Source: a virus
IMG/VR virus record: IMGVR_UViG_3300037104_000097
Coordinates: 1 to 23,975 of that record
Reading direction: 5' to 3' (one strand)
DNA: 23,975 nucleotides
Positions within the stretch are counted from its first letter, which is position 1; each line of letters begins with the position of its first letter. The notes below the pieces were generated by a model. It was not told where the DNA came from and searched no databases. It saw nothing but the letters and a program-made list of their open reading frames with translations. The translations under genes were made by a program, and so were the position numbers. Shown here in pieces: positions 15,032 to 22,785 of the stretch.

Positions 15032-15547
15032 TTACTCATAGATTTCATCCTCTAAATCCTTGCCTACCTTCTGAATGGTCACATTTGTTTTTTCTTGTAA
15101 CCCCAAGTCGCGAGCTATGATGTTAGCATTAAAGAATCCGGCAGCCGCCCCGCTAAACTTTTGATTATAAATAGTTTCCCTGATACGCGATATGATTATA
15201 GAAAAATCTTTTGACAATTTATCGGTTTTTCCGCTTAATGAAGTCTCAAATTGATTTAAAAACAAAACATTACAATCGAGATATAAACACATTCCCTGAA
15301 TGGTAAAAGGTCTTAATCTTGGCAGCTCGACAAAATTAGGGGGGAACACCATCTCTCCGTCATCGCCTTTGAATGGCTTCATTGGTGAGTATTTCACCTG
15401 TTCGACTTCGTGGTAAGGTGTATCTTCGCACCATTGAAAGTATTCACACGCGGCATCCCAAAGCAGCTCAGGAGTGGCAAATAGTTTATCCCTCCCATGT
15501 TTACTGCGAAGTTTCCAGAATTGATTTCCTTTAGGAGCGCCTTGCAT
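15032..15547 (-). CDS. Terminase small subunit
   Basis: The 171-aa protein begins MQGAPKGNQFWKLRSKHGRD, a start I associate with small terminase/DNA-packaging proteins of Bacteroidetes phages. It then shows a helical N-terminal region (LLWDAACEYFQWCEDTPYHE), a helix-turn-helix-like part (LRPFTIQGMCLYLDCNVLFL), a central helix (DFSIIISRIRETIYNQKFSG) and a C-terminal tail (NIIARDLGLQEKTNVTIQKV). It recognises packaging DNA and guides the large subunit, which is the next gene. It is first behind the strong promoter at 15566-15595 with a leader of only about 15 bases. Confidence 0.85.
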   Translation of the reverse strand: MQGAPKGNQFWKLRSKHGRDKLFATPELLWDAACEYFQWCEDTPYHEVEQVKYSPMKPFKGDDGEMVFPPNFVELPRLRPFTIQGMCLYLDCNVLFLNQFETSLSGKTDKLSKDFSIIISRIRETIYNQKFSGAAAGFFNANIIARDLGLQEKTNVTIQKVGKDLEDEIYE

Positions 15548-15565: not shown

Positions 15566-15595
15566 CAAATGTACTAATTTTTCAATTAAAAACAA
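15566..15595 (-). promoter_or_regulatory. Consensus Bacteroidetes promoter for the late operon
   Basis: On the minus strand TTG (15595-15593), a 19-base spacer and TACATTTG (15573-15566) reproduce the -33/-7 consensus TTG-N19-TANNTTTG. The -7 box lies 18 bases before the small terminase ATG. The -33 box overlaps the last codons of the truncated radical-SAM gene. Confidence 0.82.
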
Positions 15596-15932
15596 TTTTA
15601 TCCCTAAAATCCTGTACGCGAACCGGATTCTTTGTTTGTAAAAATAATTTACACATAAATCCATCATAATACGAAAGTACTTCTTTGATTATTTCGTCAG
15701 GTACGTTTTCCGCAAATAAATCATTGCAATCACACACGAAAATCGTATCTGAAGGTTTGTATTTCTTTTTAAATTCAGCCGGCCAAAGTCGCGGTTCTCC
15801 TGAATACTTTTCACGAATTGCCGTGTATCTGGTTTTCATTTTCTCAACATAGCAATAGCTGCATTTGTGCGAACATTCACCAGCTAATGGATTTGGAGTT
15901 TTATTAATAAACTCATACATATTTCCGCTCAT
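15582..15932 (-). CDS. Truncated DUF5131-type (phage Gp37/Gp68) radical-SAM-like protein
   Basis: The 116-aa product holds the radical-SAM motif C-x3-C-x2-C: Cys20, Cys24, Cys27 in AGECSHKCSYCYVEKMKTRY, which would bind a 4Fe-4S cluster. A strand DTIFVCDCNDLFAENVPDE follows at about 62-80 and then KLFLQTKNPVRV near 95-106. These match the N-terminal half of DUF5131 proteins, whose chemistry is unknown. The usual continuation after the LQTKNP segment, with the later part of the barrel, is missing. The gene ends at a TAA located within the next promoter. It may be a degenerate remnant or a short active form. It lies 50 bases after the 58-aa gene. Confidence 0.72.
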   Translation of the reverse strand: MSGNMYEFINKTPNPLAGECSHKCSYCYVEKMKTRYTAIREKYSGEPRLWPAEFKKKYKPSDTIFVCDCNDLFAENVPDEIIKEVLSYYDGFMCKLFLQTKNPVRVQDFRDKIVFN

Positions 15933-16558: not shown

Positions 16559-17110
16559 TCAAAATGGGCCACCCTCTTTCGGTTGCTCTTTTTTGTAAAA
16601 ATTGAAAAAATCATAATAGCGGGCATACTCCGCCGATTTTCGTATGTCTCCCATTGTTGGGAAATCACTTATTTGATTACTTGACCACCAACGCCACGCC
16701 GGAGGAATTAATTTGTAATCAAAAGTCGGATAACCAAGATCGAAATTACTGTTGTGATCGCAATTAAATTTAATGAAATTTCGCTCCAATGGAAGTCCGC
16801 AACATAAAATGATTGGTAATTCGAAGTTAATCAATTTCAGGTATTCCGAATGCTTAAGTCCTACAATATTATTTTCAAATTTATGCAAACAATAACCATT
16901 TTTAACCTCGGTGATCAGCGGTTTTATTTCACAGTAACAATCCAAATCAAGTAATAAAAAGTCAGGACAGTAAAGAATACCATTTTTTAATTTAAACGAT
17001 CCGGGTTCGTATTCAAATTTTAAACCGTAATGATCAAAAAATACAGCCCATCGAGCTTCTAATTTTGATCGGTATTCGATACCGTTGTATTTTGTTTTCA
17101 GTGCTTTCAT
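16559..17110 (-). CDS. PD-(D/E)XK-like nuclease
   Basis: The 183-aa protein opens with YNGIEYRSKLEARWAVFFDH, then YGLKFEYEPGSFKLKNGILY, CPDFLLLDLDCYCEIKPLI. These supply the classical nuclease residues: Glu18 (in SKLEARWA), Asp50 (in CPDF) and Glu61-x-Lys63 (CEIKP). Such small phage nucleases of the TnsA/T7 endonuclease-like group can act on recombination or packaging intermediates. The C-terminal part (PPAWRWWSSNQISDF) is aromatic and unlike the core; its role is not clear. It follows the primase-helicase with a two-base gap, so a DNA-replication or repair role fits. Confidence 0.75.
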   Translation of the reverse strand: MKALKTKYNGIEYRSKLEARWAVFFDHYGLKFEYEPGSFKLKNGILYCPDFLLLDLDCYCEIKPLITEVKNGYCLHKFENNIVGLKHSEYLKLINFELPIILCCGLPLERNFIKFNCDHNSNFDLGYPTFDYKLIPPAWRWWSSNQISDFPTMGDIRKSAEYARYYDFFNFYKKEQPKEGGPF

Positions 17111-17112
17111 AA

Positions 17113-18879
17113 TTAAAAAGGATCATCTTCTGATTTATCATTATCTTTTCCGTAAAAATCCGCCACTGGTTCAATGTGATCGTTTTTTATGGCCGGAACT
17201 ATTCTTGTACTGCCGTCCCAATATCTATTTTCTGTTGTGGAATAACTAAATTCAATTTCTCCAGGTATTCCGACTAATCTTTGTTTTTTAACTTTACCGA
17301 CAATTATTCGGACTTCACTATTTTTATAATTTGTTTTTCTGTAAGGTCTCCAAACAGAAATTACATTATCTGCCTTGTCTGAAAATGTACCGCCCCCTTT
17401 TATTTTGTAAATATCTGGCTGTGGATAATCTTCTTTGCCCTGAAAAAATGGAGTAACCTGATGTGCGACTAATCCGAAGCAAACATCATTATCAATTGAA
17501 AACTTTTTGAGCTTAGTCATAAATCGACTAATGTATAAATCTTCCCTTTCGCCTCTCTCCATGAGATGATCAATATTATTGTAGGGATCAATAGTGCAGC
17601 CGTTCACACCATAACGCCGCACAATATATTTAAAGCGCGAAAGAATATTGTCAAGTTGATAGTCGTCTTCTGGTAGAACAAATAAGAAATGATCATTAAT
17701 GAAATTTGCACCATCTTTGTACTCTTCTTCCGACATCACGTTTGCAAACCTCTTATCTGTTGATTTTCCTGTATAACAATGAATTAATTCATCAATCAAT
17801 TCACTTACAGGATAATTTTCAGGACAAAACATGGCAAATTTCCAACCATCCCGCTCCGCCTTCATTACCTGTAAAGCATTCCAAAAACTGGACTTTCCTT
17901 CATTGTTGTACCCTGTAATGATCGTTACTTCACCCTGCCTCCATTTCCAATGCTTATCAAAATTATTAAAATGGGTTGTACTTCCATAACGTTTCCCATT
18001 TCTGAACTCATTAAGCATTTTTTCCCATTCCATCGAGACAGTAAAGACACCATCTAAAGGTATTTCTTTTGCGGTTTCCAGAATGTTTTTTAGTTCATCT
18101 TTGCCGTATTTGATCAAATATTCGTTTGCATCCTTGCAGTCTTTAAAATCAATCAACAGGCATTTTTCGGCTCCAATACGCCGAATAAGCTCATTTCTCA
18201 GCTGAATCCCGGCTTCATCTGAATCAACAGCGATATACCATTTTTCAATTCGCTCAATATCATTATAGCAAGCATCAATAAAATCAAAGTTTTTAGCTCC
18301 GTTTGGCACCGACACACAGTTTTTAATACCAACCTCAATAAAAGATAAACAGTCAATTTCTCCCTCAACAATTACCGCAAAATCATTATTCTCAATTCCG
18401 TTGAGGTTGTATAGGATTAATTCCGCACCCTTGAAAAGTCCAAACGATTTTTCAGGCCCGCGATATTTAATATTAATTAACTCTTCACCTCTAAAATAAT
18501 TAAAATTGATCGTCTCAACTTCTTTCTCGAATTTTTGCATCCAATTCATACCGGATGTTATTTTCATTCGCCTTAAGATAAATTGAGATATTCCACGACC
18601 TTCAAAATATTTAACAACCTTGTCACTTAAATTTGTGTTGTTACTCCAAACCGGACGCTCATACTTTTTTTCTTTTGGCTGAAAGTCCTTAAACTCATAA
18701 AACGCTTCACCACAATTATGGCACTTTCCTACTTTGTCGTTATGGTTCCAGTTGAAACATTTGTCTTTTTGTTTCTTTCGATTCGACGAACACGCCGGAC
18801 ATTGAGTAGATTCAATACCGTTGTATTTAGAAAAATCAACATGGTATTCCTGTCTTGTGGATTTAGCTACAATTTTCAT
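17113..18879 (-). CDS. Primase-helicase (T7 gp4/Twinkle-like)
   Basis: The 588-aa protein joins three parts. A zinc ribbon at the N-terminus has Cys27, Cys30, Cys53 and Cys56 (QCPACSSN, GKCHNCGEAF). A TOPRIM primase domain has VIVEGEIDCLSF (Glu172, Glu174) and AVDSDEAG (Asp219, Asp221). A DnaB/RecA-type helicase has Walker A GYNNEGKSS (323-331), Glu354 in FCPENYP, Walker B GCTIDPYNN with Asp431, then LVAHQV and the GGGTFSDKADN segment. It would both prime and unwind DNA at the replication fork. Its ATG overlaps the stop of the DUF1376-like gene by four bases (ATGA), so loader and helicase are coupled. Confidence 0.9.
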   Translation of the reverse strand: MKIVAKSTRQEYHVDFSKYNGIESTQCPACSSNRKKQKDKCFNWNHNDKVGKCHNCGEAFYEFKDFQPKEKKYERPVWSNNTNLSDKVVKYFEGRGISQFILRRMKITSGMNWMQKFEKEVETINFNYFRGEELINIKYRGPEKSFGLFKGAELILYNLNGIENNDFAVIVEGEIDCLSFIEVGIKNCVSVPNGAKNFDFIDACYNDIERIEKWYIAVDSDEAGIQLRNELIRRIGAEKCLLIDFKDCKDANEYLIKYGKDELKNILETAKEIPLDGVFTVSMEWEKMLNEFRNGKRYGSTTHFNNFDKHWKWRQGEVTIITGYNNEGKSSFWNALQVMKAERDGWKFAMFCPENYPVSELIDELIHCYTGKSTDKRFANVMSEEEYKDGANFINDHFLFVLPEDDYQLDNILSRFKYIVRRYGVNGCTIDPYNNIDHLMERGEREDLYISRFMTKLKKFSIDNDVCFGLVAHQVTPFFQGKEDYPQPDIYKIKGGGTFSDKADNVISVWRPYRKTNYKNSEVRIIVGKVKKQRLVGIPGEIEFSYSTTENRYWDGSTRIVPAIKNDHIEPVADFYGKDNDKSEDDPF

Positions 18880-19568
18880 CTGTATTCAGGTTTCATTAAG
18901 TCCCAGTAAGGATCAGAAAACTCTTCGGTATTTTTGTGTTCTATTTTGATTGGCTTTCCGTTTATCTGTTTTATTGGAAACATACCATCGTAATTTTTAG
19001 ACATTGCATTTTGAAGCATTGCTTTCGCTATTTCCAAATTTTGTCCTGAATCACATAAATAAGTCTTAATAAAAGATTTTAATCCAATTGGTTTATAAGA
19101 CTGTCTTTTTTCTGATTTATATTTTAACCATTCGATAATTAAGGGCTCAAATCCTTCAGGAATTGAAATTTCATTTTTTTCCTTAATAGTATTATATATA
19201 TTCAGATAAGATAAATTCTTATTTTCATTTTCATTTCCCATATGTGAGGTCAAATGACCTCCCTCTTTTGTATGTTGATTAGTCCCTAATTTATTGTTTT
19301 TTCTGCTATCAGTGAATGCCTTACGCTTGTTTTGTTCCTCCTCTAATCGAACATTGTAATATAGGCCTTTTTCGTCTTTAATGAATTTTGTTTGTATTGC
19401 GTCCCAAATTTGACCAACCAATTGACCTATCATATGTGAGGTCAAATGACCTCTATTAAATTGCAACATTAATAAATCCATGTATGCTCCTTTTTCCTCA
19501 AAGGACATTCCCATTGTGCCACCTAAGTAGTCATTCGGATAAAATAAAAAAGCCGGATCTTTACTCAT
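18876..19568 (-). CDS. DUF1376-like replication initiation / helicase-loader protein
   Basis: The first 40 residues (PAFLFYPNDYLGGTMGMSFE then EKGAYMDLLMLQFNRG) match DUF1376-type phage replication proteins, a winged-helix-like DNA-binding part. A polar, repetitive linker follows, with the peptide GHLTSHM twice (40-46 and 104-110). The C-terminal half (IEWLKYKSEKRQSYKPIGLK then SFIKTYLC) looks like the DnaD/helicase-loading helices. The linker is coded by two identical 23-bp DNA repeats and an AT-rich tract, similar in layout to an origin inside a lambda O-type gene. It overlaps the primase-helicase start (ATGA). The exact family name is from memory of the pattern. Confidence 0.75.
   Translation of the reverse strand: MSKDPAFLFYPNDYLGGTMGMSFEEKGAYMDLLMLQFNRGHLTSHMIGQLVGQIWDAIQTKFIKDEKGLYYNVRLEEEQNKRKAFTDSRKNNKLGTNQHTKEGGHLTSHMGNENENKNLSYLNIYNTIKEKNEISIPEGFEPLIIEWLKYKSEKRQSYKPIGLKSFIKTYLCDSGQNLEIAKAMLQNAMSKNYDGMFPIKQINGKPIKIEHKNTEEFSDPYWDLMKPEYR
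19160..19238. other. AT-rich tract beside the iteron-like repeats
   Basis: This coding stretch is strongly AT-rich (for example TAGTATTATATATATTCAG) and borders the first 23-bp repeat. It would serve as the unwinding part of a replication origin if the repeats are initiator sites. Nothing more specific is seen. Confidence 0.4.
19239..19261. repeat. Iteron-like direct repeat copy 1
   Basis: One of two identical 23-bp sequences 192 bp apart, in the same reading frame. Each contains the inverted repeat GAGGTCA-AA-TGACCTC. It lies in the linker region of the replication gene, so it may be an initiator-binding site. Confidence 0.65.
19431..19453. repeat. Iteron-like direct repeat copy 2
   Basis: Identical to 19239-19261 over 23 bp, including the 7-bp inverted arms with an AA centre. 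Both copies encode the same peptide GHLTSHM. No third copy was found in the window. Confidence 0.65.
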
Positions 19569-21976: not shown

Positions 21977-22109
21977 GCAACTAACACTAAATATAAAATA
22001 TACGGGTGTCAGTGCGTGTTTGAACGGTACTACCTTTAATTATCATTCGTGTATCGGGATAGGATACCGCTTTTAATCCCGTACATTTCATATTTTTAAC
22101 GTTACCAGC
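21977..22109 (-). repeat. attC-like site 2
   Basis: Minus strand: begins GCTGGTAACG and ends GTTAGTTGC. Outer arms AAATATGAAATGTACGGG (22095-22078) and CCCGTATATTTTATATTT (22006-21989) pair with two G-T wobbles, and inner CGGTA/TACCG (22069-22065, 22029-22025) also pair. Spacers of about five and three bases lie next to the ends, as in sites 4 and 5. Confidence 0.68.
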
Positions 22110-22125
22110 AATTGGTTTTAAAAAA

Positions 22126-22746
22126 TTATAAAAATCCTCCCCACTGCTCCATCATAGCCTTTGCAATCCCGGTAAATGATTTACTCCTTTCGTTTGAATT
22201 ATCCCACGCTTTTCTTATTGGCAATTTGCTTTTCCGCCTTGTACCATCTTTCAACAATCCGCCTCTTGTGCTATTGCTTGTGTAATGAAATTTAGGCTCT
22301 ACTATTTCCGTTGGCTTTAATAACGGTAATCCTTTCAACCACAAACAGGTTCTTTTTTTAAATGGGTCGCCAAATTGCCAAGGGTTTATGATTTGGTCAG
22401 GCTTCCTCCAATTTGTATTCAAATAACCTGTTGGGTTTTCAATCGCAATCCTTTCACATTTGTTATTATAAATTTTCATTACAAAATCAAACGCTTTCTG
22501 TTGTCTGCCATCGGCTTGTTTAATTTTCCAACTTGGCGCACCCGCACCGGATAAATCTGTACAAGGCGGAAAAGCAATTATCATGTACCAATCTTGGTCT
22601 ATAATATCAAACAAATCGCCCTGATAATGTGGTAAGCCTTTCGCCCCGGGAAGCAAATCGCAACTCATCGCATCGTAACCGGCATTTATAAATTGTTCCG
22701 TTACTATTTGGCTTTCTTCACACGCTATTAAATATTTTTTTGCCAT
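22126..22746 (-). CDS. Small C5-cytosine DNA methyltransferase-like protein
   Basis: The 206-aa product begins MAKKYLIACEESQIVTEQFI and has motif IV-like IIAFPPCTDLSG with the catalytic-type Cys62 after Pro60-Pro61, then ERIAIENPTG (Glu103-Asn104, the ENV-like motif VI). An early acidic stretch (MSCDLLPGAKG) fits the cofactor pocket. It is much shorter than usual C5 methyltransferases, but the target-recognition part may be the basic end (FHYTSNSTRGGLLKDGTRRK). Such small proteins are found in phages and mobile elements, where they may protect DNA against restriction. It lies between attC-like sites 2 and 3 as a single-gene cassette. Confidence 0.75.
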   Translation of the reverse strand: MAKKYLIACEESQIVTEQFINAGYDAMSCDLLPGAKGLPHYQGDLFDIIDQDWYMIIAFPPCTDLSGAGAPSWKIKQADGRQQKAFDFVMKIYNNKCERIAIENPTGYLNTNWRKPDQIINPWQFGDPFKKRTCLWLKGLPLLKPTEIVEPKFHYTSNSTRGGLLKDGTRRKSKLPIRKAWDNSNERSKSFTGIAKAMMEQWGGFL

Positions 22747-22785
22747 CGCTATTTTTATAATTTTTTAAAACCAACTGTTCGCTTC

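Follow-up and report, generated by a model that had tools for sequence, protein, structure and literature searches.

A probable replication origin within a DUF1376-like phage gene

Introduction

Does a repeat that lies inside an open reading frame, and reads as the same peptide in both copies, serve the protein or the DNA? The question is posed by a stretch of viral DNA (IMG/VR record IMGVR_UViG_3300037104_000097, positions 1–23,975; hereafter the window, 23,975 nt) that contains a 23-bp direct repeat, CATATGTGAGGTCAAATGACCTC, in two 100% identical copies at 19239–19261 and 19431–19453. Their starts are 192 bp apart, both lie within the minus-strand ORF 18876–19568, and both code for GHLTSHM in the same frame, which matches exactly what an initial annotation had described in proposing a replication origin here.

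Origins within genes have precedents. The ori of phage lambda consists of iterons and an AT-rich tract inside gene O (PMC6022878, PMC7466680), and in Stx phages additional iterons show up as additional residues of the protein (PMC7466680). Similarly, oriL of phage SPP1 lies inside gene 38 and comprises direct repeats and an unwinding element that are bound by gp38 (PMC6316719). For DUF1376 or its member YdaU, we found no report of a tie to an origin in the literature searched, a body mostly without subscription papers and preprints.

Results

Two repeat clusters in a putative initiator gene

Searching the whole window for GAGGTCANNTGACCTC with up to 3 mismatches returned only the two known places, both exact, while dinucleotide shuffles of the whole window gave 0.31 matches on average at the same tolerance, and two or more in 4 of 100. 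The 23-bp copies proved to belong to larger, imperfect clusters with a 12-bp period and the core CAWWTG. The locus comprises the following features:

18876–19568, minus strand: DUF1376-like putative replication initiator gene (ORF, 230 aa)
19278–19568, minus strand: N-terminal domain, residues 1–97, predicted winged helix (AF2, pLDDT 90.7, pTM 0.79)
19402–19453, minus strand: site 1, candidate iteron cluster with 12-bp period, GAGGTCATTTGACC TCACATATGATA GGTCAATTGGTT GGTCAAATT, containing the 23-bp copy 19431–19453
19239–19261, no strand assigned: site 2, 23-bp copy in linker codons, two 12-bp units (repeat match)
19168–19238, minus strand: AT-rich tract that follows site 2, built of (GAAAAT)-type hexamers; putative DNA unwinding element (AT content)
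18968–19154, minus strand: C-terminal domain (about residues 139–200) common to phage O-like replication proteins (blastp)
17113–18879, minus strand: primase-helicase, toprim plus DnaB (Toprim_2 5e-12, DnaB_C 4e-8, phrog_239 9e-84)

Site 1, with the sequence GGTCATTTGACC-TCACATATGATA-GGTCAATTGGTT-GGTCAAATT, presents the units CATTTG/CATATG/CAATTG/CAAATT at nt 120, 132, 144 and 156 of the gene and coincides with the codons of residues 40–53 (GHLTSHMIGQLVGQ), i.e. a turn and the next helix of the predicted winged-helix domain. The units of site 2, CATTTG/CATATG, start at gene nt 312 and 324 and are directly followed by GAAAATGAAAATAAG..., and the AT-rich tract that the initial annotation had placed beside one copy is borne out by 77–83% AT over 19150–19239, next to the copy at 19239. 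The two 23-bp copies of that annotation thus stand, but the unit is an iteron-like array of roughly 12 bp and not a single 23-bp repeat; its placement in the gene was likewise correct, yet it missed that one cluster falls on codons for the predicted DNA-binding domain.

Predicted domains and gene neighborhood

The encoded protein has the layout of an initiator, with a winged-helix N-domain, a disordered linker and an O-type C-domain. It matches ‘primosomal protein’ families of PHROG (E 4.6e-9) and scores 24.7 bits for Pfam DUF1376 (PF07120), below the gathering cut-off of 30.1, and is therefore called DUF1376-like here; the relative L163 passes the cut-off with 34.2 bits. Structure prediction with AF2 places helices at residues 11–18, 23–39, 44–50 and 52–61, followed by a two-strand wing and a helix at 73–94, a predicted winged-helix layout. 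Compared against BFVD, this model retrieved proteins named DUF1376 (E 1.5e-5 to 1e-3, TMq 0.6–0.9; best E 1.5e-5, TMq 0.89), besides weak fold matches to DUF4373-type and, at E 0.1–0.3 only, ‘Replisome organizer’ proteins, a weak fold link to phage replisome organizers. With the DUF1376 phage proteins, a family that includes YdaU of the Rac prophage, the window protein thus shares a fold match of its N-domain, and also the gene order ahead of helicase or P. Searching the PDB with the N-domain model gave no significant match, although the list consisted mostly of winged helices (DnaD-N, ORC2, MarR-like; Z ≤5.5); a profile search of solved structures returned nothing significant, no sequence match of the N-domain to lambda O was found, and Foldseek had no significant match for the full-length model, which is too weak for such a search.

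The C-domain connects the protein to the O-like proteins of other phages. Using blastp on a set of 4 sequences, it showed 30% identity to Pantoea phage PdC23 pdc_052 (E 7e-7), and the relative L235 matches the O protein of Cronobacter phage phiES15 (tblastn, E 3e-5); O-like proteins with a matching C-domain adjoin P. In the alignment made alongside the blastp comparison, the row of L327 is out of frame and was disregarded together with the hhalign probability based on it; the blastp figures do not draw on that row. In the phiES15 O gene itself, the linker contains 24-bp repeats, and 11-bp repeats occur in a Vibrio O-like gene; no periodic repeat was detected by the synonymous-shuffle test in the named O-like genes of PdC23 and BUCT711. 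The 26 representatives have C-domains that form 16 sequence clusters, throughout which the repeat unit stays CATATG-type; the unit thus goes with the N-domain, as would be expected of a domain that reads it.

Directly downstream of the DUF1376-like gene, with a 4-bp overlap, lies the toprim-DnaB gene, in agreement with the coupling to a primase-helicase noted initially. This order recurs in relatives and named phages, where the DUF1376-like gene precedes a primase-helicase, DnaB, P or DnaA-like loader gene and is often located downstream of CII/HTH regulators. In the cultured Cellulophaga phage phi19:1, the candidate is gp031, upstream of the primase/helicase and identified by comparing gene length and position with those of the DUF1376 fold match R9ZW52; its 11-bp AAACCGAAACA-type repeats scored above every one of 200 synonymous shuffles. 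Vibrio phage 1.003.O is another cultured phage with this architecture. GC skew was also considered as a signal of replication start, but in both the window and phi19:1 it changes monotonically with gene direction, and is uninformative as the genes of the region share one direction.

Further genes around the locus deserve mention. Downstream of the primase-helicase, 16559–17110 resembles an endonuclease/resolvase family (phrog_21138, phrog_945), and DUF1064 genes adjoin O-like/DUF1376 genes in Klebsiella phage BUCT711 and Rhizobium phage RHph_N28_2. An ORF at 15582–15932 is similar to the N-terminal half of a phage radical-SAM-like protein (CSHKCSYCYVEK) and appears truncated (116 aa). A weakly methylase-like gene (22126–22746) is flanked by a 27-nt inverted repeat (96%; 22109–22135 / 22751–22777) and also holds a perfect 19-nt inverted repeat (22226–22244 / 22559–22577).

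Conservation of the clusters at the DNA level

Both sites are found at the same position in about 85 close relatives, whose unit core is CATATG, in most of them inside GGTCATATGACC. Site 2 consists of 2–6 units (e.g. GHMTSHMTTHMTSHMIGHMIGHMENEN in L048), and the two clusters are spaced 162–216 bp apart. Site 2 is followed in the relatives by a run of NNA-AAT codons (GAA, GTA or ATA, then AAT), in which residues as unlike as E, V, I, K and R take turns and the DNA remains AT-rich: in 26 representatives the tract has 81–84% AT vs. about 66% elsewhere, and asparagine is written AAT in 339 of 341 cases, compared to 63% outside the tract. As a separate observation, the DUF1376 genes L365, L366, L368, L370 and L371 (phages BA3, AbP2, X14, MR15 and Vibrio 1.184.A) contain AACCAnT / AACCAAG 7-bp tandem repeats in linker codons, which encode peptides such as NQEPRTKNQEP and NHKPLTINQEP, are significant against synonymous shuffles, and are possibly the equivalent of the AT-rich tract or ssDNA-binding motifs in those phages.

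Judged from these sequence comparisons, selection maintains the repeat clusters as DNA and not as protein. Within the arrays, histidine is encoded by CAT in 94% of cases (55% elsewhere in the same genes) and glycine by GGT in 91% (34% elsewhere); CAA for glutamine is likewise fixed, and codon fixation persists in the 26 representatives sharing <80% identity. A scan of IMG/VR for CATATG-N6-CATATG-N6-CATATG yielded mostly DUF1376-like genes, with some triples dismissed as unrelated low-complexity proteins. Among relatives, the array is read in all three frames, as H-M, as G-I-C (L206, L213, L245, L260, L266, L311, L319) or as S-Y/P-Y (L221, L315), and 11-bp spacers even shift the frame within single genes (L169, L214, L221, L315), two of which (L169 and L214) use all three. 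The initial annotation had named a retained peptide with a lost DNA repeat as the finding that would speak against it; the comparison of relatives returned the opposite, with the DNA retained while peptide and frame change, in line with its proposal that the DNA is selected.

As a scan for CATATG triples is biased by design, the count was redone on a non-redundant set of 31 genes collected by protein similarity only. Out-of-frame CATATG occurred 22 times in these representatives vs. 5.6 times in synonymous shuffles (maximum 11 in 200 shuffles), and CATATG in total 79 vs. 54 times (maximum 61 in 200 shuffles). Pairs at iteron spacing numbered 46 within the gene and 0 in 270 kb of flanking DNA. 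An apparent avoidance of CATATG outside the gene (observed/expected 0.51) was discarded as ordinary among 6-bp palindromes of the same composition. For the closest relatives, autocorrelation per single gene was often not significant, because their in-frame HM peptide preserves CATATG under synonymous shuffling.

Other repeats in other lineages

Lineages devoid of the CATATG unit possess a different repeat, often identical at both sites, and one with GATAACCC exists beside the CATATG lineage. The Prevotellaceae gene L184 repeats AAGATAACCCAA at both sites with 25 identical bp in common, which read KITQKITQ at site 1 and KDNPKDNP (KDNPKDNPKDNP) at site 2. In L191 and L196, site 1 contains GCGACCCTTGAA and site 2 the inverse of this sequence; site 1 of L190 contains GCTACCCTACAA, and the linker of L187 bears ACCACGGTAAT three times. 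Alignment to the CATATG relatives revealed that in L178, L183, L184 and L187, all without CATATG and with other repeats, the domain ends in KQRE(R/N) instead of SRRNN, a difference that is possibly a specificity determinant.

With synonymous shuffling as the null for in-gene periodicity and a threshold of p≤0.02, periodic repeats were called in 14 of the 31 DUF1376 genes that make up the Bacteroidota-type set and in 7 of 25 taken from a second phylum (that of the L167 genome, Neomegalonema, presumably Pseudomonadota), as opposed to a single one of 147 neighboring control ORFs; by this test, about half of the DUF1376 genes had no significant periodic repeat. Words common to site 1 and site 2 (p≤0.05) were present in 19/31 genes vs. 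8/147 control ORFs. No relatives were found in the plasmid collection. Many matches to GAGGTCANNTGACCTC in IMG/VR were rejected as unrelated intergenic palindromes. Perfect 24-bp palindromes AAAGGAGGTCANNTGACCTCCTTT also occur in viral contigs of IMG/VR (L011, L024, L043, L044, L054, L061, L065, L074, L075, L076), outside any DUF1376-like frame and with no open frame across them; these AGGAGG-containing palindromes may be terminators or regulator sites.

Discussion

Sequence comparison establishes selection at the DNA level, two clusters with a common unit, their restriction to the gene, an AT-rich neighbor, synteny with helicase or P genes, and a linkage of the unit to the N-domain. Taken together, the clusters are probably the iterons of a replication origin located inside its own initiator gene, comparable to those of lambda O and SPP1 gp38. 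We infer that the gene product binds the clusters and that melting and replication start occur there: the winged-helix N-domain would bind the tandem 12-bp units at site 1, in the domain's own codons, and at site 2, in the linker codons; nucleoprotein assembly across both clusters would melt the AT-rich hexamer tract beside site 2; and the C-domain would recruit the replicative helicase from the adjoining downstream gene, a task that lambda O performs via P and SPP1 gp38 via gp39. Counting against the origin, the 12-bp spacing differs from the helical repeat, so that adjacent units would point to different sides of the helix. The lack of a significant periodic repeat in about half of the DUF1376 genes and the distance between the two clusters, unlike the compact lambda ori, also count against it.

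The main alternative is that the clusters form an operator within the gene and have no origin function; they would then be a binding site for the own protein or another regulator, or else an incompatibility or titration site. Any sequence-specific DNA-binding protein would produce the observed DNA-level conservation, and initiators often autoregulate as well. However, the array is absent outside the gene, for example from promoters, in the 270 kb of flanks, and this, together with the AT-rich hexamer tract after the array, the synteny with helicase/P genes and a C-domain shared with O-like proteins, renders an operator the less favored and, in our estimate, unlikely explanation. Sites for other phage DNA transactions, be it packaging (pac/cos), a recombination hot spot or partition, can be in-gene repeats too. 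Here, though, the small terminase gene is encoded elsewhere (15032–15547), the unit follows the DUF1376 N-domain rather than a terminase or integrase, and an AT-rich melting tract would not be expected, leaving such a function very improbable.

Selection on the protein would require GHxTSHM/xxHM to be a short linear motif or metal-binding peptide that was duplicated in the linker. In its favor, the window's own clade shows an almost invariant peptide, and with a 4-residue period the residues at site 1 would share one face of the helix. Yet relatives retain the DNA in other frames with other peptides, synonymous positions are fixed, and the peptides found at these positions in distant lineages are unrelated, so that this explanation is already contradicted and we grant it almost no weight.

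The origin reading thus remains preferred, and the lambda-like layout suggested at the outset (initiator-like gene, iterons, AT-rich tract, adjoining helicase gene) recurs in relatives and named phages; the initial interpretation is supported as largely right, while understating the pattern. As in lambda, the putative iterons lie mid-gene in an initiator gene, with an AT-rich flank and a helicase-recruiting gene directly downstream. In contrast to lambda, the window's gene has two clusters, one of them within winged-helix codons; the unit measures 11–12 bp, with a CATATG core or a lineage-specific sequence, whereas lambda iterons are longer; the clusters are 162–216 bp apart rather than forming a compact ori; and a fused primase-helicase is encoded downstream in the window. 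With SPP1, the locus shares repeats and an AT-rich element inside the gene of a (here putative) origin-binding protein, which in SPP1 acts together with a loader and a helicase of the DnaB type. No sequence homology to the SPP1 system was seen, host and iteron differ, and SPP1 itself possesses a further origin at another genomic location.

More generally, we lean towards viewing DUF1376 proteins as phage replication initiators, each with a lineage-specific origin in its own gene at two fixed places, one in the codons for the winged helix and one in the linker ahead of an AT-rich hexamer/heptamer tract, where the DNA code would override the peptide and even the frame, and iteron and N-domain would change together. 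New are the family, the second cluster in winged-helix codons, the short 11–12-bp units and the demonstration in three frames; an in-gene origin as such was already known. The finding would assign a role, along with a testable target sequence, to a domain of unknown function that many phages carry, with matches in 109 records of the phage collection alone, and would make the replication start of uncultured Bacteroidota phages predictable from sequence. The two-cluster design and the three-frame array would represent an unusually clear example from nature in which DNA function overrides protein sequence, and the paired domains and sites may serve as material for learning a recognition code.
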